A DNA stretch of 64,000 nucleotides, from NCBI GenBank assembly GCA_001803635.1, contig MHDU01000046.1, positions 1 through 64,000 on the forward strand, written 5' to 3'. Each line of letters opens with the position of its first letter. The first letter of the stretch is position 1. The notes beneath the pieces are model-generated. The model ran no database searches. It was not told the origin of the DNA and saw nothing but the letters and a program-made list of their open reading frames with translations. The DNA comes from Nitrospirae bacterium GWB2_47_37 (GTDB lineage: Bacteria > Nitrospirota > Thermodesulfovibrionia > Thermodesulfovibrionales > Dissulfurispiraceae). The translations under genes were made by a program, and so were the position numbers. Below, piece after piece: positions 12,363 to 51,014 of the stretch.

Positions 12363-12407
12363 TCTTGCATTAATGCATTGATAAAAAAAACTAATAGGAG
12401 GTTTGTC

Positions 12408-15400
12408 ATGGGGGTATCAAGGAGGGACTTTCTAAAAATTTCCGGGGGAACGCTTCTTGTAGGCTCTCTCGGTGTAAATCTCGATCCGGTTAAGGCTTAC
12501 GCGCAGACTCTCAGGATCAAGAGCGCTAAAGAGACTCAGACCATCTGTCCTTACTGCGCAGTCGGATGCGGTATCATAGCTCATACATCGGGGGGCAAGG
12601 TAATAAACACCGAAGGCGATACCGATCATCCCATAAGCGAGGGGACGCTGTGCTCGAAGGGGCAAAGCCTTTACCAGATAGTGAATAATCCTATGAGACT
12701 TACCAAACCTAAATACCGCGCAGCCGGTGCGACCGAATGGAAAGAGGTGGAATGGGGTTGGGCCCTCGATGAGATCGCAAAAAGGATAAAACAGACCCGC
12801 GATAAAACCTTCAAGCTTACCTCAAAGTCAAAGATAAAAGAGAAACAGCCCGACGGCACGGAGAAAGAAGTTGAAAAAGAATTCGTCGTCAACAGGACGG
12901 ACGGGATCTCGCACGTCGGAAGCGCCGCCCTCGATAACGAAGAGTGCTACATGCTCCAGAAAATGCTCCGTTCATGGGGACTTGTTTATATAGAACATCA
13001 GGCGCGAATATGACACTCCGCAACTGTAGCGGCTCTGGCAGAGTCGTTTGGTCGCGGCGCGATGACAAACCACTGGGTTGATGTAAAGAATGCCGATGTA
13101 GTTCTCGTGATGGGAGCAAACCCCGCCGAAAACCACCCGATAGCCATGAAATGGGTGATGCGTGCAAGGGAGAAGGGCGCAAAGTTTATAGTCGTAGATC
13201 CGCGCTTTACAAGGACCGCTGCAAAGGCGGACATATACGCCTCCATGCGTTCCGGTACGGATATAGCGTTTCTCGGCGGCATGATAAAATACATACTCGA
13301 CAATAATCTCTATTTCAGGGATTATGTTGCAAACTATACCAATGCGACATTTCTTATAAATCCCGAATTCAAAGGCCCCGGAGAACTCGACGGCGTTTTC
13401 TCCGGTTACGATGAAAAAACGAGGAAGTACGATAAGAAGACATGGTCGATCCAGATGGATGATAAGGGCATACCTAAAAAAGATATGACCCTCAAAGACC
13501 CCAACTGTGTTTTCCAGCTTCTGAGAAAGCACTATTCGCGTTATACCCTCGAGAAGGTTTCGAGCATTACCGGAACGCCTAAGGAAAAACTTATAGAAGT
13601 CTATAAGACCTACGCATCCACCGGAAAACCCAACCGGGTAGGCACCGAGCTTTACGCGATGGGCTGGACGCAGCATACGGTTGGAACACAGAATATCAGG
13701 GCAATGACAATAATCCAGCTTCTGCTCGGCAATATCGGACTCGCCGGAGGCGGTGTAAACGCAATGCGAGGCGAATCGAATGTACAGGGTTCGACAGACT
13801 ACGGGATTTTGTTCCATATACTGCCCGGGTACCTGCCGGTTCCTTCAGCATCGGTTGTTGACCTTAAAACGTATATCGAAAAGTTCACGCCAAAAACCAA
13901 AGATCCCAAAAGCGTAAACTGGTGGGGAAACAGGCCGAAGTATATAACGAGCTATCTGAAGGCCATATACGGAGACAACGCGACTAAGGATAACGATTTC
14001 GGTTATGCGTGGCTGCCGAAGCTCGATGAGGGTCAGAACGGCTCATGGCTTATGCTCTTTGATCAGATGTTCAACGGCAAATTCGAAGGGTTCTTTGCGT
14101 GGGGGCAAAATCCGGCCTGTTCGGGCGCAAATGCCGGCAAGGTAAGAAAAGCCCTTGCGAAGTTGAAATGGATGGTTAACGTGAACCTCTTCGACAACGA
14201 GACGGGTTCTTTCTGGAAAGGGCCTGACATGAACCCGAAGGATATAAAAACAGAGGTCTTCATGCTGCCGTGCGCTTCCTCGGTAGAAAAAGAAGGGAGC
14301 ATCACAAATTCAAGCAGGCTCGGCCAATGGAGATATAAGGCTGTCGAGCCCATCGGAGAATCGAAGCCCGACTCCGAGATAATGAACGAACTCTATTTCA
14401 GGGTGAAAAGGCTTTATCAGAAACAGGGCGGAAAATTTCCGGATCCTATAGTGAACCTCACATGGAATTACGGAGAAAAGGACGCGTCCGGCAAGATTAA
14501 AAAAGTGGATACGCACAGCGTGGCGAAAGAGATAAACGGCTACTATCTTGAGGATTTGAAAGTAGGCAAGAAAGGACATCTCGCCGTAAATTTTGTCTCT
14601 TTACAGGCGGACGGCACAACATCCTGCGGTAACTGGTTATACAGCGGAAGTTATACCGAAAAAGACGACAAGGTTGTGAATATGATGGCAAGAAGAGGAA
14701 AGAAAGACATAGGAAATCTCGGCATGCATCCTGAATGGGCATGGTGTTGGCCTTTAAACAGAAGGATAATTTATAACCGTGCATCCGTTGATCCGCAAGG
14801 AAGGCCGTGGGATCCGAAGCGTGCCGTTATCAAATGGAATCCCGATAAATTGGATCCGAAGACAAAAAAGACCGCTCCCGGATGGGACGGGGATGTGCCT
14901 GACGGTCCCGCGCCCCCGATGGCCGATGAGAAGGCCGGTAAATATCCGTTCATTATGAGGGCTGACGGCATGGGAGCGATATTCGGTCCCGGTCTTGCGG
15001 ACGGCCCGTTCCCGGAGCATTATGAACCGCTTGAATGCCCGGTTCAGGAAAATCCGATGTCTAAAAAGCACAGGATAAATCCTACTGTGAAGTTGTTTTA
15101 CGGGGTTACGGGTCCGCATGACAAGCCCGTAAAGGACGGCGGCCGGCCCGAAGACATATTCCTGACTTGTGATATACGTTACCCCTATGTAGCAACTACA
15201 TACAGGGTTTCGGAGCACTGGCAGACAGGGCTGTTGACGAGGCATCTGCCGTGGCAGTTGGAAATGCAGCCCCAGCAGTTCGTAGAAATAAGCAAGGAGC
15301 TCGCGGATGAAAAGGGGATAAAGAACGGCAGCAAGGTTACAGTGTCTTCCGCCCGCGGCAAGGTATGGGCGATAGCGGTGGTTACCGACAGGTTCAAGCC

Positions 15401-15578
15401 CTTCAAGGTTATGGATACCACGATACATCAAGTGGGGCTGCCGTGGTGTTTCGGTTGGCAGCATCCGGAGGACGGAAGCGGCGGCGACAGTGCAAACCTG
15501 CTTACTCCGACCGTCGGCGATGCTAATACAATGATTCCAGAAACAAAGGCCTTTATGGTCAATGTTGAGAAGGCATAG
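12408..15578 (+). CDS. fdnG: Formate dehydrogenase alpha subunit, selenocysteine-containing (UGA at 13011-13013)
   Basis: This is the catalytic Mo/W-bis-MGD subunit that oxidises formate to CO2. One frame of 1,056 residues results if the in-frame TGA at codon 202 is read as selenocysteine. The context is the family's active site: HQARI-U-HSATVAALAESFGRGAMTNHW. The N-terminus has a twin-arginine signal (SRRDFLKISGG), so the enzyme faces the periplasm. One 4Fe-4S cluster is bound by Cys47, Cys50, Cys54 and Cys82. The C-terminal molybdopterin-binding domain is complete. The ATG at 12408 is chosen for its TAGGAGG site; an upstream ATG lacks one. Beta and gamma subunits follow directly. An automatic caller would split this gene at the UGA. 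Confidence 0.95.
13014..13050 (+). promoter_or_regulatory. Candidate bacterial SECIS element for the alpha subunit
   Basis: Bases 13028-13048, just after the UGA, can form a nine-pair stem (two G-U pairs) closed by a GGC triloop at 13037-13039. An alternative fold puts the GCUCU at 13032-13036 where E. coli fdhF has its GGUCU loop, 18 bases after the UGA. Position and size fit a bacterial SECIS that binds SelB, but which fold forms was only judged by eye. Confidence 0.5.
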
Positions 15579-15589
15579 GGGGTGATGAT

Positions 15590-16348
15590 ATGGCAAGAAA
15601 GGCGTTATTAATATCTCCGGAGTTGTGTATAGGATGCAGGGGCTGCCAGACGGCGTGCAAGTCATGGAATCAGCTTCCCGCGACAAAGACCGTAAACGAG
15701 GGGAGCATTGAGAATCCTCCTGATCTCACCCCGAATTTATACAACAAGATAAGGTATGTCGAGATGCCTTCCAACAGCAACATGGTCCGGTGGCTTTTTG
15801 TGAGTCAGCGGTGCATGCATTGCGACGATGCGGGCTGTATCAAGATATGTCCGGCTCCCGGCGCCCTCTTTAAGACAAAGGAAGGAGCGGTCGGTTTTGA
15901 CAAGGACAAATGCATCGGGTGCAAGCTTTGTGTCGCGGGATGCCCGTTCGATGTGCCGAGATATGATGAAAAAGACAAGGTATCTAAATGTCATCTCTGC
16001 TCCGACAGGATAGCGGAGGGGCTTGAACCCGCGTGCTCCAAGACCTGTCCCACAGGCGCCATCAGATACGGCGACAGGGACAATATAATCGGCAAGGCGC
16101 AAAAGGCCGGTTATGAAAAACTTTACGGTCAGGTCGATCTCGGGGGTCTCGGCGTGCTTTATGCATTTAAAGACTCTCCGAAGATCTACGGAATGGACGA
16201 GCGTCCTCAGATACCGGAAACAGTCGTCTTCTGGCACAAGGTTTTGAAACCCCTCGCGTATTGGGGGCTTGGAGGCGCGGCAGCAGTGTCGCTTCTGCAT
16301 TATCTTGTGATAGGGCCTAAGAAAGACGAGGGGGGTGACCAGCTATGA
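15590..16348 (+). CDS. fdnH: Formate dehydrogenase beta subunit, 4Fe-4S ferredoxin type
   Basis: The 252-residue electron-transfer subunit has four cysteine sets for 4Fe-4S clusters: CIGCRGCQTAC, CMHCDDAGCIKIC, CIGCKLCVAGC and CHLCSDR with a later CSKTC. It carries electrons from the selenocysteine subunit to cytochrome b. A C-terminal hydrophobic helix (GLGGAAAVSLLHYLVIG) would anchor it in the membrane, as in E. coli FdnH. It starts 11 bases after the alpha subunit and overlaps the gamma gene by 4 bases. Confidence 0.95.
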   Translation: MARKALLISPELCIGCRGCQTACKSWNQLPATKTVNEGSIENPPDLTPNLYNKIRYVEMPSNSNMVRWLFVSQRCMHCDDAGCIKICPAPGALFKTKEGAVGFDKDKCIGCKLCVAGCPFDVPRYDEKDKVSKCHLCSDRIAEGLEPACSKTCPTGAIRYGDRDNIIGKAQKAGYEKLYGQVDLGGLGVLYAFKDSPKIYGMDERPQIPETVVFWHKVLKPLAYWGLGGAAAVSLLHYLVIGPKKDEGGDQL

Positions 16349-16953
16349 CGGTTATAAGAAAGGCAAGCGCGTTTGAGATATTGAATCACTGGGTTTTGGC
16401 CGTAAGTTTTTTAATACTTGCGATAAGCGGGTTCGGGTTTCTCTTCCAACTCGAACAGTTGAACGCCGTATTCGGAAACTTCAACGCTATGAAAAACATT
16501 CACAATTATGCCGGCATCGTATTTACCGCGTCCCTTATCCTCACGATATTTCACTACCTTCCGGTTTCTCTTAAATTCGGCGCCGACGACATAGCATGGT
16601 TTTTAAATGGCGGCGGCTATTTATCGAAGAAGTCGAAAGTGCCTCCTCAGGACGAGCTGAACGCGGGACAGAAACTCTATTATATCGTGATACTCCTGTC
16701 GGGATTGGCGATTGCCGCTTCGGGCTTTGCAATCTGGCTCCGGCCGCAGGTGCCCGACATAAGAAAACTGGTTGTGCTGTCTCACCTTGTGCACAACATC
16801 GCCTTCGATTTGATGATCATAGCCGTTCCTCTTCACATCTATCTCGCTACACTCGCAAACCCCGGTACGCTGAGGATAATGATCACCGGCACAGTGCCTT
16901 TGGAATGGGCGAGGAAGAGGCACGCAAAATGGGTCAGGAAGATGGGATATTAG
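16345..16953 (+). CDS. fdnI: Formate dehydrogenase gamma subunit, cytochrome b556
   Basis: The 202-residue membrane protein has four predicted helices with histidines suited to two b hemes: NHW near the start, the HNYAG region, and SHLVHN and PLHIYL in the last helices. It should pass electrons to the quinone pool. The ATG lies within the 3' end of the beta gene (overlap ATGA), showing tight coupling. The C-terminus is basic (ARKRHAKWVRK), as expected on the cytoplasmic side. Confidence 0.93.
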   Translation: MTVIRKASAFEILNHWVLAVSFLILAISGFGFLFQLEQLNAVFGNFNAMKNIHNYAGIVFTASLILTIFHYLPVSLKFGADDIAWFLNGGGYLSKKSKVPPQDELNAGQKLYYIVILLSGLAIAASGFAIWLRPQVPDIRKLVVLSHLVHNIAFDLMIIAVPLHIYLATLANPGTLRIMITGTVPLEWARKRHAKWVRKMGY

Positions 16954-16977: not shown

Positions 16978-17568
16978 ATGAGCAAACCGGTTTTATTGCT
17001 GCTCTTCTTTTTTCTGACTGCGGTATCTTTCGCGGAAGAGAGAAGATATGTTGTGCCTATCGAGGATTCGCCTGTCTACGGCCCGCAGGGCGCTCAGGTT
17101 ACCATAATCGAGTTCCTCGATTACCAATGACCTCATTGCGCCGGGGTCGGTCCGACCGTCCATAGATTGATGAAGGAGTATGACGGCAGGTTAAGGCTCG
17201 TGATAAAGCACTACCCGTACAAATACAGGGATTTTTCGCATATGGCATCGGAGGCCGCGATGGCAGCCCGTGAGCAGGGGAAGTTCTGGGAGATGCACCG
17301 CACTCTGCTGAAAAAATCCCCGAAGCTCGACAGGAACAGCCTTATAAAGTATGCCGGGGAATTGGGCCTTGACTTAAAAAGGTTCACCGATTCGGTAGAC
17401 GGCAGGAAATATTCAAAGCTCATAGAGCGCGACAAGAAACTTGCTGTTGATCTCGATGTGTATAACACGCCGACTTTTTTCATCAACGGCAGAAAGGTAA
17501 TAGGCAACAGGCCGTACGAGTATCTGAAAATGATCATCGAAGAGGAGCTTAAGGGTGTCAAAAAATAA
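16978..17568 (+). CDS. DsbA-like thioredoxin-fold selenoprotein (UGA at 17128-17130)
   Basis: From ATG 16978 one frame runs to 17568 with a single in-frame TGA at codon 51. The product (196 residues) has a signal peptide (VLLLLFFFLTAVSFA), then VTIIEFLDYQ-U-PHC. The TGA falls exactly at the first cysteine of the DsbA-type CPHC motif, giving a UxxC active site (Sec51, Cys54). The rest is a normal DsbA/DSBA-like oxidoreductase with a helical insert and the cis-proline in YNTPTFFINGRKVIG (Pro165). A SECIS-like hairpin follows the UGA. The neighbouring formate dehydrogenase already requires Sec decoding. A caller that stops at UGA would report only the last 133 residues. It probably performs thiol or selenothiol redox chemistry in the periplasm; the partner is unknown, perhaps the peroxidase next to it. 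Confidence 0.88.
17131..17160 (+). promoter_or_regulatory. Candidate bacterial SECIS element in the DsbA-like gene
   Basis: Bases 17145-17148 (GGUC) pair with 17154-17157 (GACC) around a GGUCC loop at 17149-17153. The loop begins 18 bases after the UGA, the same spacing and almost the same loop (GGUCU) as the E. coli fdhF SECIS recognised by SelB. This supports true selenocysteine insertion rather than a nonsense mutation. Confidence 0.6.
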
Positions 17569-18625
17569 CAAGCCGGTGCTGCTTTTAATTCCGTTAGTTT
17601 GTATAGCGTTTTTTTCATTGAATGTTTATGCCGGGCATCTCGAACCTTTCAGATCGGTTCCTGTCCCGAAGCATAATCCTCAAACGCCTGAAAAGATCGA
17701 ACTCGGCAAGAAATTATTTTTCGACAGGAGGCTTTCGGGCGACGGCACAATGAGCTGCGCCACGTGCCATAATCCCGAGCAGGCATTTACGGACGGTCAG
17801 GACATCTCGCTGAGCTATCCCACGACCATGAACTGGAGGAATGCTCCTACTCTCATCAACACAGCCTTTCAGAAATTCCTCTTTCACGACGGCAGGGTCA
17901 AATCTCTTGAAGACCAGGCGCTTTTCCCGTTGATGTCGGCCTTTGAGATGAACCAGAATCTCGATTTTGTTGAAGAGGAACTGAGGGTTGTGCCGGAATA
18001 TGTCGAGGCCTTTAAAAAGGTCTTCGGCGGCGATGTAACGCGCGAGAGGATCGCTATGGCTATCGCGGCATTCGAGCGGACGCTTGTTTCCGTGAACTCT
18101 CCTCTCGACAAGCATTTGAAAGGCGATAAAAGCGCGTTATCCGAAGACGCTAAAAAAGGCCTGGAGATATTCGAAGGCAAAGGGAAATGCGCCGATTGCC
18201 ATTACGGCGTAAATTTATCGGATAATAGATTCCATGCGTTGAATGTCCCGGAAAATCCCGCGCTTCTTAATGAGCCGAGGGTTATCGCTACAATGAGATT
18301 TACGGCAAAGGTATATCACTATGAGGATTATAAAAATCTCAGGGAAGATCCCGGCAGATACCTGATTACGAAAAACAAAAAAGACCGGAAGGCTTTCAGG
18401 ACGCCGTCATTAAGGGAAATATCCAAGACGGCCCCGTACATGCACAACGGGGTATTTAAGACTCTGGATGAAGTGCTGGATTTTTTAAATAAGGGCGGAG
18501 GGCCCGGTAATAAGGCGTTGAAGCCTTTAGGATTGACCGGCGAAGAGAAGAGATACCTGAAGGCGTTCCTTACGGAAGCGCCGGCCGGAGAAGATATTGC
18601 TATAAAATACCCGGAGGTGCCGTAA
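17555..18625 (+). CDS. Di-heme cytochrome c peroxidase, MauG/CcpA family
   Basis: The 356-residue protein has a signal peptide (LLLIPLVCIAFFSLNVYA) and two c-type heme sites, CATCH at 68-72 and CADCH at 212-216. The signature ELGKKLFFDRRLSGDGTMSC and the later FRTPSLREISKTAPYMHNG identify the bacterial peroxidase family, which reduces H2O2 in the periplasm. It starts at GTG 17555 inside the end of the DsbA-like gene. The linkage suggests protection of the oxygen-sensitive formate dehydrogenase, which is an inference. Heme attachment needs a cytochrome c maturation system elsewhere. Confidence 0.92.
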   Translation: MSKNNKPVLLLIPLVCIAFFSLNVYAGHLEPFRSVPVPKHNPQTPEKIELGKKLFFDRRLSGDGTMSCATCHNPEQAFTDGQDISLSYPTTMNWRNAPTLINTAFQKFLFHDGRVKSLEDQALFPLMSAFEMNQNLDFVEEELRVVPEYVEAFKKVFGGDVTRERIAMAIAAFERTLVSVNSPLDKHLKGDKSALSEDAKKGLEIFEGKGKCADCHYGVNLSDNRFHALNVPENPALLNEPRVIATMRFTAKVYHYEDYKNLREDPGRYLITKNKKDRKAFRTPSLREISKTAPYMHNGVFKTLDEVLDFLNKGGGPGNKALKPLGLTGEEKRYLKAFLTEAPAGEDIAIKYPEVP

Positions 18626-18630
18626 ATAAA

Positions 18631-19380
18631 ATGGCTGATATTAACGACATCATAACAAAAAAAGCGCATCTGAAGGATACGTTGAGGCTTTACGAAAAGA
18701 CGGTTGAGTTTAACAATATAGTACAAGGCCTCGGGAATAACGACATCCTCGAAGGCATGGCCTATGCCGCTGATTTTGTGGAGCCTGTTTTTAAGGCGTT
18801 TTCATCGATTTTCGACCTGCCTGAGGAGAATCTCGTCCCGTTAAAGGAAGCGATGAGATTCGGTCAAATAGATTTCACGAGACTCCCCATGAACGAACTG
18901 CCCTCTTTTTCCCTTCCGTATCACGAGGATGAATTGATGACGATCCTTTTTCTGATAGGGAAGCCGTATTTTATTCGTTTAAGGAATTCTTTTAAGAACG
19001 AGAGCGATTTATGGGAAGACGGCAAATGCCCTGTCTGCAACGCTAAACCGTCTCTCGGATCCATAGACGAAGAGAACAAGAGAAAATTGTTCTGCTCGTT
19101 TTGCGGGTCATCCGGTTATTATAGGCGCATAGGGTGTCCCGTATGCCGCAGTTCGGATACATCCAAACTTAATATCATCACTCTCGAGGATGAAAAGGGC
19201 TTCAGGATCGATACCTGCGATTCGTGCGATTCTTATGTAAAGACCGTTGAAAGCGGATTAATGAACGAACTGAATCCCGACGTGGCGGATCTTGTAAGCC
19301 TGCCCCTTGATATTATCGCTCAGGGCAAGAATTATAAGAGGCATTCTCCGAATCCTATCGGGATGATGCGGATGGCGTGA
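18631..19380 (+). CDS. fdhE: FdhE-type formate dehydrogenase accessory protein
   Basis: The 249-residue protein has an N-terminal helical domain and a C-terminal part with rubredoxin-like CxxC pairs: CPVCNAKPS, CSFCGSSGYYRR, CPVCRSS and CDSCDSY. FdhE acts on the exported formate dehydrogenase before assembly and binds iron through these cysteines. The neighbouring genes confirm the role. It is five bases after the peroxidase stop, within the same operon. It ends with an ordinary TGA stop, showing that UGA is not globally reassigned. Confidence 0.9.
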   Translation: MADINDIITKKAHLKDTLRLYEKTVEFNNIVQGLGNNDILEGMAYAADFVEPVFKAFSSIFDLPEENLVPLKEAMRFGQIDFTRLPMNELPSFSLPYHEDELMTILFLIGKPYFIRLRNSFKNESDLWEDGKCPVCNAKPSLGSIDEENKRKLFCSFCGSSGYYRRIGCPVCRSSDTSKLNIITLEDEKGFRIDTCDSCDSYVKTVESGLMNELNPDVADLVSLPLDIIAQGKNYKRHSPNPIGMMRMA

Positions 19381-19424: not shown

Positions 19425-21380
19425 ATGAAACAGGTATTTCTCGATACGCTTTCACTCGAAGACGCGCGCAGGCTATTGTTCAGCCGCCTTAATTCGATAG
19501 ATTTAAGCCTTCCTTCCGAAAAGGTAGATGTAAGAAATTCGGCAGGACGGATTACGGCCGAAGCCGTATTTGCCAGATATTCCTCTCCCTTTTATCATTC
19601 GGCTGCGATGGACGGTTACGCGGTGAGATTCTCCGATACGTTTACCGCATCTGAGACGTCCCCTTCCTTGCTTAGAATAGGTTACGACGCAGTTTATGTG
19701 GACACGGGCGATCCCATGCCGGAAGGATTCAATGCCGTCGTAATGGTGGAAGATATAAATATAATCAGGCGAGAGGGGATGGGCGATGGGCAGGAGGATG
19801 AATGCATAGAGATTTACGAGCCTGTCACGCCGTATCAGCATGTGAGGACAATCGGAGAAGATATTGTCGCGACCGAATTGATAATACCCGAAAATCATGA
19901 AATAAGAGCTATAGACGCGGGGGCAATGCTTGCAAGCGGGCACACCGAAATATCGGTAAGAAAGATGCCTAAGATCGCGATCATTCCTACAGGCACCGAG
20001 ATCGTAGAACCCGATGTCGTAAAAAATCGTCCTCCCGCTCCCCCGGAAATCATAGAGTACAACTCTTCGGTCCTTTCAGGGTTGGCGCATGAATCGGGAG
20101 CCGAGACCGTACGGTTTAACATTGTTAGAGACGACATGGAGGATATTAAAAAGGCGATAGATGAGGCGTCCAAAACCTGCGACATTGTGCTTGTCAACGC
20201 GGGATCCGGAAGAGGCTCCGAAGACTATACATTGGCGGCCGTAAAGGAACTCGGCGAGGTAATTATAAACGGCGTCTCCATAAAACCGGGCAAGCCCTTT
20301 ATCGCCGGGTTTGTTAATAATAGACCTGTATTCGGGATTCCGGGCTATCCCGTCTCCGCGTATCTTACATTTCAATTGTTCGTGAAGCCTGTAATTTCAA
20401 GGATTCTTGGAGTCGCATTAAAAGAAAAAGAAAAGATAAAGGCTGTAATATCGAGGCAGATAGCCTCTCCTATGGGCGTGGATGAATTTATCAGGGTCAA
20501 GGTCGGAGTTGTTAACGATAAATACATCGCCACTCCCGCGGGAAGGGGCGCCGGTTTATTAATGTCCCTTGTGAGGGCGGACGGAATAATAAGGATTCCT
20601 GCCGATACCGAGGCATTAAGCGCGGGCACGGAAGTAGAGGTAGAGTTGATCAGAGATAAAAACGAGATTAAAAATACCATCGTCTGCATAGGAAGCCATG
20701 ACAATACCATGGACATATTGGCAAACGCCGTAAAAAAGAAATACCCTCAATTCTCTTTGTCGTCGGCGCATGTGGGATCGATGGGCGGTTTGACTGCATT
20801 GAAAAGAGGCGAGGCGCATTTTGCGGGGACACATCTTTTAGATGAGCAATCGGGGGAGTACAATATCCCGTTTATAAAGAGATTGCTTGCCGATAGAAAA
20901 ATAGTCCTTGTGAATCTTGTTTATAGGCAGCAGGGTTTTCTGGTGAAAAAGGGCAATCCAAAAAACATAAAGGGTTTTGAAGACCTGATGAGGGATGATG
21001 TGATTTTCATAAACAGGCAGGGAGGCTCCGGCACGAGGCTTCTTTTGGATAAGCACCTGAGAGAACTCGGCATCAATCCTTATATGATCAAGGGATACGA
21101 CAGGGAGGAATATACCCATATGGCTGTCGCGTCTGCGGTGCTTACCGGCCTCGCGGATACGGGCATTGCGGTTTATTCTTCGGCCGTCGCCCTCGGCCTC
21201 GATTTTATTCCGGTCGCGAATGAACGGTACGACCTCGCCATTCCCTCCGAATTCATGGATATGGAGATGATAAAGATTCTACTTGAAATCATCAGGGAGG
21301 ATAAGGAATTCAGGGCTACTGTCGAGGCCCTCGGAGGATACGATACGAGGGATATGGGGAAAGCGGTTTTTGAGGGGTAA
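19425..21380 (+). CDS. moeA: Molybdopterin molybdenumtransferase MoeA fused to a periplasmic-binding-like domain
   Basis: Residues ~1-400 are MoeA, which inserts molybdate (or tungstate) into adenylylated molybdopterin. Signatures include the AMDGYAV motif, TGDPMPEGFNAVVMVED, IPTGTEI and KPGKPFIAGFVNNRPVFGIPGYPVS. Residues ~420-651 form a PBP-like domain (IVCIGSHDNTMDILA, then FINRQGGSGTRLLLDK) related to LysR-effector and molybdate-binding folds. This fusion occurs in several anaerobes; the extra domain may sense or deliver the oxyanion. It is one base from the convergent livF gene. Placement after fdhE fits supply of cofactor to the formate dehydrogenase. Confidence 0.93.
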   Translation: MKQVFLDTLSLEDARRLLFSRLNSIDLSLPSEKVDVRNSAGRITAEAVFARYSSPFYHSAAMDGYAVRFSDTFTASETSPSLLRIGYDAVYVDTGDPMPEGFNAVVMVEDINIIRREGMGDGQEDECIEIYEPVTPYQHVRTIGEDIVATELIIPENHEIRAIDAGAMLASGHTEISVRKMPKIAIIPTGTEIVEPDVVKNRPPAPPEIIEYNSSVLSGLAHESGAETVRFNIVRDDMEDIKKAIDEASKTCDIVLVNAGSGRGSEDYTLAAVKELGEVIINGVSIKPGKPFIAGFVNNRPVFGIPGYPVSAYLTFQLFVKPVISRILGVALKEKEKIKAVISRQIASPMGVDEFIRVKVGVVNDKYIATPAGRGAGLLMSLVRADGIIRIPADTEALSAGTEVEVELIRDKNEIKNTIVCIGSHDNTMDILANAVKKKYPQFSLSSAHVGSMGGLTALKRGEAHFAGTHLLDEQSGEYNIPFIKRLLADRKIVLVNLVYRQQGFLVKKGNPKNIKGFEDLMRDDVIFINRQGGSGTRLLLDKHLRELGINPYMIKGYDREEYTHMAVASAVLTGLADTGIAVYSSAVALGLDFIPVANERYDLAIPSEFMDMEMIKILLEIIREDKEFRATVEALGGYDTRDMGKAVFEG

Positions 21381-34707: not shown

Positions 34708-35121
34708 ATGAATACAGCAAAAGGCACTCGACTCGTCAGTGATTTTGTCCGAACATTAAATGAACAGACCGGCGTAACGGTCAATCGTACCGCTATCTCA
34801 CGAAATATATTTGAATTTAACGGCAAGAAAAACTGTTTGCTTTATGTCAAAGGTAGAGCAGAAAAACCCTATCGGTGGGGCATTACTGCCAATGTTATTG
34901 ACAGACTACAATCCCAACAAAAAAAGTGGCATGTCGTTTTCCTATTTGAGTCTTCTGAACAGGGGTATCTGCTATCTTCAAAAGACACAGAATATTATAT
35001 TCAGGATGTCTGGCCACTGGGGGCTGACGGAGATTATAAACCAGCAACCGGCACATATTTATCAAGAAACACAGCAATAACTTCAATAAAAGATTTCAAG
35101 AATATAATTGAAAACGTATAA
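34708..35121 (+). CDS. Hypothetical 137-residue protein
   Basis: The product is mixed alpha/beta (FVRTLNEQTGVTVNRTAI, then FEFNGKKNCLLYVKGRAEK and WHVVFLFESSEQGYLLSS). The pattern loosely recalls restriction-endonuclease-like folds, but no catalytic motif can be claimed. GGGAGAA precedes the ATG. Its stop codon falls inside an attC-like site, the usual layout of an integron gene cassette. No family was recognised. Confidence 0.7.
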   Translation: MNTAKGTRLVSDFVRTLNEQTGVTVNRTAISRNIFEFNGKKNCLLYVKGRAEKPYRWGITANVIDRLQSQQKKWHVVFLFESSEQGYLLSSKDTEYYIQDVWPLGADGDYKPATGTYLSRNTAITSIKDFKNIIENV

Positions 35122-50810: not shown

Positions 50811-50813
50811 ATT

Positions 50814-50998
50814 AAGCCCACCCTGCCGTGTGGTGAAAAATTAGATCCCTGTGTCTACAGGTGGGCGCCTTGAAGATAACTTAGGCTTCCTCTCTTCCCT
50901 TGCGGGGGAGGCTTGCACACCGTGTACCTAACGCCGGCTCCCCAAAAATCTAATTTGCGGGATCAAACGCTTTCACCTAACCACAAACAGGGCAGGTA
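50814..50998 (-). ncRNA. ssrS: 6S RNA (SsrS)
   Basis: On the minus strand, ~185 bases fold as a long interrupted rod: the two ends pair (ACCUGCCCUGUUUGUGGU region with ACCACACGGCAGGGU), a central open bubble follows, and a terminal hairpin is at the middle. Conserved 6S blocks are visible: GGAAGCCUAAGUU (50879-50891) and GGCGCCCACCUG (50858-50869). 6S RNA binds sigma-70 RNA polymerase by mimicking an open promoter. Its place upstream of rny is a known arrangement in related phyla. Ends are estimated. Confidence 0.82.
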
Positions 50999-51014
50999 AT
51001 CAATCCCTTAGTTA

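Follow-up and report, generated by a model that had tools for sequence, protein, structure and literature searches.

The stretch of DNA analysed here, called the window below, comprises positions 1 to 64,000 of contig MHDU01000046.1 of Nitrospirae bacterium GWB2_47_37 and carries, on its forward strand, a row of genes around a dsbA-like gene at 16978-17568. Upstream of this gene lie three formate dehydrogenase (FDH) genes, of which the initial annotation had counted two: the alpha subunit of FDH-N (12378-15578; TIGR01553, 1399 bits), the Fe-S beta subunit (15590-16348; TIGR01582, 235 bits) and the cytochrome b gamma subunit (16345-16953; TIGR01583, 134 bits, above the cut-off). As had been proposed, the first of them also depends on selenocysteine (Sec): Sec212 of FDH alpha is encoded by TGA 13011-13013 in the context RIUHSATVA, and its SECIS element (13008-13066) was matched by Rfam SECIS_3 with 31.5 bits (E 3.3e-4; the curated cut-off of 63 is not reached). 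Downstream, the expected peroxidase was found, a two-haem enzyme of the CCP/MauG type (17555-18625; Pfam CCP_MauG, 183 bits; two CxxCH motifs), followed by an FdhE-like FDH assembly protein (18631-19380; Pfam FdhE_C, 42 bits, and FdhE_central, 29 bits) and a MoeA-PBP fusion of molybdenum cofactor metabolism (19425-21380; PRK14498, 762 bits). Since the intergenic gaps are short or negative throughout, from FDH over dsbA, the peroxidase and FdhE to MoeA, these genes probably form one operon. Elsewhere in the window, a 6S RNA was found at 50811-51001 on the reverse strand (81 bits).

The dsbA-like frame begins at ATG 16978 and ends at TAA 17566-17568. Reading of the sequence bore out that it encodes a signal peptide and is interrupted only by TGA 17128-17130, at the position of the first Cys of the DsbA CPHC motif. 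With this codon (codon 51) read as Sec, the product has 196 residues, MSKPVLLLLFFFLTAVSFAEERRYVVPIEDSP...TIIEFLDYQ-U-PHCAGVG...NTPTFFINGRKVIG...VKK, with a signal peptide at about residues 1-19 (MSKPVLLLLFFFLTAVSFA, followed by EE). In the U51-P-H-C54 motif of this protein, hereafter Sec-DsbA, U51 aligns with the first Cys of CPHC; apart from Sec51 and Cys54, the protein contains no Sec or Cys. Pfam profiles identified it as Thioredoxin_4 (PF13462; 101 bits against a cut-off of 23.2) and DSBA (PF01323; 71 against 25.6), while NF008198, the model for DsbA sensu stricto of the E. coli type, gave 22.8 bits and did not reach its cut-off of 279. The AlphaFold model (pLDDT 93) has a thioredoxin fold with a helical insert, and the nearest solved structures, at TM-scores of 0.7-0.8, are those of DsbA-like proteins, BdbD and ScsC. 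Among the invariant positions of the alignment are U/C51, C54 and, in the cis-Pro loop, T164-P165, where a cis geometry may be expected from the family. Thus, the product is almost certainly an exported thiol/selenol oxidoreductase with a single domain of the DsbA fold. BdbD, ScsC and alpha-DsbA2 (3eu3, 6nen, 6eez, 3gyk) are its closest relatives of solved structure in both fold and sequence, but they share only 22-30% identity with it and stand in different gene contexts; in these proteins Cys stands in the place of Sec.

The source genome was searched as a whole for the Sec machinery. Profiles detected selB (391 bits), selA (625 bits) and selD (323 bits), the last with an in-frame TGA of its own, and a tRNA-Sec (selC) with the anticodon tca (UCA) was found with 71 bits; the absence of selB or selC, which the initial annotation had named as a reason to abandon the proposal, was thus not encountered. 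In one other genome, G019, a Sec-DsbA gene is present and selB gave no match at the limit used; its assembly is a draft of 150 contigs, and the missing gene is probably an assembly gap.

Alignment of homologues at codon 51, a check suggested at the outset, placed Sec in all orthologues and Cys in the nearest Cys-type homologues. All clear orthologues of the family (54-67% identical) carry TGA at the same codon. In 176 genomes of the order, 64 orthologous places, taken at E below 1e-76, were found in 62 genomes; every one of the 64 contains a single in-frame TGA, Cys at codon 51 was met in none, and three of the matches run on into a normal TAG or TAA end. In a maximum-likelihood tree, the 45 distinct Sec sequences form one clade with a support of 100/100 and no Cys member; its neighbours are Cys-type homologues from Myxococcota, Nitrospirota and others, and separate Sec sequences occur within the Myxococcota branch. 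Coding conservation was found on both sides of the UGA, and pairwise dN/dS values downstream of it, mostly 0.03-0.2 in closer pairs, point to purifying selection. The decay of the locus in close relatives, against which the initial annotation had warned, is therefore not seen. Many selB-bearing relatives possess no orthologue.

Behind the Sec codon, the SECIS hairpin occupies 17144-17158, with the stem 17145-17148/17154-17157 and the loop GGUCC at 17149-17153. When the T of TGA is numbered 1, the stem pairs positions 18-21 with 27-30, often with the additional pair 17/31, around a loop at 22-26; an alternative pairing gives 5 bp and a loop GUC. The hairpin was said to start 18 bases after the TGA, which is correct for the GGUCC loop, but the stem begins earlier, at nt 17 or 18. 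The likeness of this spacing to that of the E. coli fdhF SECIS was confirmed on the verified fdhF sequence: GGUC is found at nt 22-25 from the UGA in both. Unlike in fdhF, the dsbA stem is shorter and a lower stem is not evident.

The loop is exactly GGUCC in 42 of 45 orthologues, and paired changes were observed at 20/28 (U-A, C-G) and at 18/30 (G-C, U-A, A-U, C-G). In total, 15 cells were changed on both sides, and the covariation score was equalled in none of 500 shuffles, which ignore relatedness; it was also best in the true register (slide 0), above every slide. As the hairpin falls in codons for Val/Ala-Gly-Pro-x, 300 control sets were drawn in which codons were replaced by synonymous ones according to each gene's own usage. 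The four pairs and the loop were intact in 71% of the 45 orthologues, against a mean of 2.8% (maximum 13%) after resampling, which rules out that the hairpin is a by-product of conserved Val/Ala-Gly-Pro codons. A covariance model (R1) made from the Sec-DsbA orthologue sequences was run against homologous loci with a total length of about 1 Mb. It retrieved the window gene, all five in-frame TGA codons of Myxococcota and, from the source genome, that of a DsbC-like gene; the next match, with a lower score, was in a Cys-type gene. Sec-type genes thus have the hairpin behind their TGA, and Cys-type genes lack it behind the Cys codon.

In the published bSECIS consensus, an apical loop of 3-9 nt with G in the first two positions tops an upper stem of 4-16 bp, 16-37 nt from the UGA, and the model requires a minimum free energy of -7.5 kcal/mol or lower (PMC13188914, Fig. 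2A). The dsbA hairpin has this shape (loop GGUCC, 4-5 bp, 18 nt from the UGA) but misses the energy limit: the 15-nt hairpin has -6.5 kcal/mol, a stretch of 32 nt reaches -7.3 and the consensus -6.41. Also against the hairpin, folding of the single sequence over 38 nt gave a minimum in which GACCUC pairs with the GGGGUC region and not the SECIS hairpin (z +0.26). Thermodynamic folding of one sequence was set aside as uninformative. In the Rfam search, only the FDH hairpin was matched, and the dsbA hairpin gave no match even at E 5.

On these grounds, we hold it as virtually certain that 16978-17568 is a genuine selenoprotein gene. Standard gene callers would split it, which would suit a pseudogene or a sequencing error, and in the automatic annotation of the order such genes are probably truncated or missing. 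A genuine stop or a wrong base at the TGA is nevertheless ruled out for practical purposes by its presence in 64 orthologous places and by the purifying selection downstream, and is further opposed by the Sec system and the covarying hairpin. Alternatively, the UGA might be reassigned or translated by read-through without Sec, giving for example Trp. The open frame is the only point in favour of such a reading, which we consider extremely improbable in view of tRNA-Sec, selA, selB and selD in the genome, of Cys at codon 51 in the Cys-type homologues and of a hairpin tied to the TGA of Sec-type genes and absent from Cys-type genes.

The existence of DsbA-like selenoproteins, which the initial annotation had mentioned, is documented. 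DsbA-like UxxC sequences were reported from the Sargasso Sea in 2005 (PMC1088965; nine sequences) and from a bacterial survey in 2006 (PMC1794560; four sequences), and a 2026 review lists a "DsbA-like protein form 1" with PF01323 and the example NIP15863.1 (PMC13188914). Sec-DsbA shares with them the DsbA/thioredoxin fold, Sec in the first position of UxxC, a bSECIS downstream and the lack of an assigned function. It differs from the 2005 and 2006 sets in that the parts of these reports consulted contain no Nitrospirota case and mention no link to a haem peroxidase. By PF01323 and UxxC, Sec-DsbA would be assigned to form 1, with which it was compared by description, so that NIP15863.1 and the present subfamily may overlap. 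The top NCBIfam model for Sec-DsbA is NF041057 (87.4 bits, residues 32-189), the Rcas_1661 family of thioredoxin-like (seleno)lipoproteins, which the review enters as DsbG-like (PMC13188914). UxxC and the fold are common to both, but Sec-DsbA by no means attains the curated cut-off, 190 bits, and its signal peptide has no lipobox Cys. This cut-off is passed by a Sec array of Myxococcota (L076), and Sec-DsbA is set apart from the Myxococcota sequences by its separate 100/100 clade. In the open-access literature, no paper was found on the Sec-DsbA subfamily or its pairing with a peroxidase, nor one joining a selenoprotein DsbA, formate dehydrogenase and cytochrome c peroxidase. The kind of protein is thus already known; within it, Sec-DsbA forms a well-supported and apparently new subfamily, spread through a Nitrospirota order and with a near-constant gene partner. 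Sec-containing DsbA-like proteins have stood in catalogues for some twenty years with no function assigned to them; an orthologous group that is large, exclusively of the Sec type and joined to a single such partner makes function testable.

This partner is the peroxidase: of 30 orthologous loci taken as representatives, 29 have it directly behind dsbA. Of the 34 representative loci examined, five have no adjacent peroxidase: four hold distant dsbA paralogues, and the fifth, G011, is a true exception, with tandem Sec-DsbA genes and no peroxidase. In G011 (L170:7031-8290), TGA is present in both genes, and the second encodes UTHC in place of UPHC. Among the 31 genomes of the family, ten have both dsbA and the peroxidase, one has dsbA alone and one the peroxidase alone. 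In the window, the GTG start of the peroxidase lies inside dsbA with an overlap of 14 nt. Such an overlap, of 11, 14 or 17 nt, was found in 21 of 29 loci, a few of them from identical or near-identical genomes; in the overlap loci, the ribosome site of the peroxidase is formed by Glu codons of dsbA (GAGGAG, Glu-Glu), and 14 of these 21 loci offer no other start codon between the overlap and the homologous region. The peroxidase itself has the CCP_MauG domain and the two CxxCH haem motifs of the CcP, MauG and MbnH two-haem enzymes, but reaches the curated cut-off of neither the MauG nor the MbnH model. In nearly all orthologues, it contains four Cys past the signal peptide, all within the two CxxCH motifs, so that any thiol exchange with Sec-DsbA would concern haem-binding Cys.

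FDH is found upstream of dsbA in most loci. It is absent there in L040, L041, L157, L158 and L174, of which L157 has only a distant FDH homologue, downstream, and in the genomes of family f10 no FDH operon precedes dsbA. FDH was therefore downgraded as the main partner, several loci having retained dsbA and the peroxidase without it. Of the initial suggestion of a tie to FDH or the peroxidase, the second part stands, and the first describes a usual but not constant neighbour. A functional link between Sec-DsbA and the peroxidase appears likely.

Profile searches of the source genome for CcdA, VKOR and DsbB found CcdA, no VKOR, and for DsbB, with a single profile, only a frame of 72 residues; CcdA is the sole well-supported Dsb membrane partner among the three. 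The DsbB-like frame (L182, contig C1, about 34747-34863) ends soon past its CPLC motif and may be truncated or frameshifted. This combination weakly favours a reductive or isomerase role of Sec-DsbA, supplied by CcdA, over that of an oxidase. Both Thioredoxin_4 matches in the genome are selenoproteins. The second is a DsbC/DsbG-like protein, predicted to be exported (L183:5922-6692, contig C74), with the motif D-U-P-H-C; its TGA lies at L183:6363 and is followed by a long hairpin.

Comparison shows that UGA 51 is recoded, that the product adopts a DsbA fold and that a haem peroxidase is its regular gene partner. The explanation that best unites these points, leading from Sec decoding through an exported redox protein to the peroxidase, is in our view highly probable as a whole. 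As the comparative evidence shows, SelB and tRNA-Sec decode UGA 51 as Sec, guided by the hairpin 14-27 nt downstream. After export to the periplasm, Sec51 and Cys54 would cycle between a selenenyl-sulphide and a selenol-thiol pair in exchange with Cys of a client, as the fold and UPHC suggest. The likeliest client or beneficiary would be the co-translated two-haem peroxidase, whose CxxCH Cys Sec-DsbA might keep reduced or unscrambled for haem attachment; Sec might let it go on functioning under the peroxide met by the peroxidase, and the upstream FDH would feed electrons from formate into the same respiratory chain. Such a reductive action on the haem-binding Cys is put forward tentatively. 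As the 3' end of dsbA contains the ribosome site and start codon of the peroxidase, ribosomes failing at UGA 51 would miss them, and production of the haem peroxidase could then keep pace with the successful insertion of Sec. That selenium supply gates the peroxidase in this way, with Sec-DsbA as its dedicated maturation factor, seems quite unlikely.

Two other roles were considered. Instead of maturing the haem peroxidase, Sec-DsbA could work beside it as a periplasmic thiol/selenol peroxidase or an enzyme repairing peroxide damage; the two proteins would then shield periplasmic enzymes that are sensitive to oxygen, among them FDH with its Sec and molybdenum. The near-constant pairing, the replacement of the attacking Cys by Sec and the presence of a second selenoprotein, FDH alpha, in the same operon agree with this role. 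It is made rather improbable by the UPHC thioredoxin motif and the invariant cis-Pro loop, which are typical of disulphide exchange and not of Prx/GPx, and by the Pfam and NCBIfam profile searches, in which no peroxidase family matched. The protein could also serve general oxidative folding, as DsbA proper does, or FDH assembly, the neighbourhood of the peroxidase being regulatory only. Here the motif is of the CPHC type, as in oxidising DsbA, FdhA and FdhB are rich in Cys, and the order FdhABC-dsbA-peroxidase is kept in most loci, with FdhE next in many. Against this, the five loci named above keep dsbA and the peroxidase without an upstream FDH, the genome has no VKOR and a short DsbB frame, and many selB-bearing relatives do without an orthologue, unlike what would be expected of a general folding factor; we regard this role, too, as doubtful. 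A link to the peroxidase remains the preferred reading.

Further Sec-DsbA lineages were noticed in the order. The distant DsbA-like genes at L162:6635-7132, L171:6148-6663, L172:5125-5637 and L173:6189-6764 have TGA at the same place, and their hairpin loops differ, e.g. GGCUUGAGCC. In Myxococcota, DsbA-like genes were found at L052:6702-9164, L076:7386-8510 and L088:2688-3203, some in tandem arrays. In the L052 array, Sec copies adjoin Cys copies, and a GGUCC hairpin lies behind each Sec codon of the Myxococcota genes, in which Cys and Sec have apparently been exchanged repeatedly.
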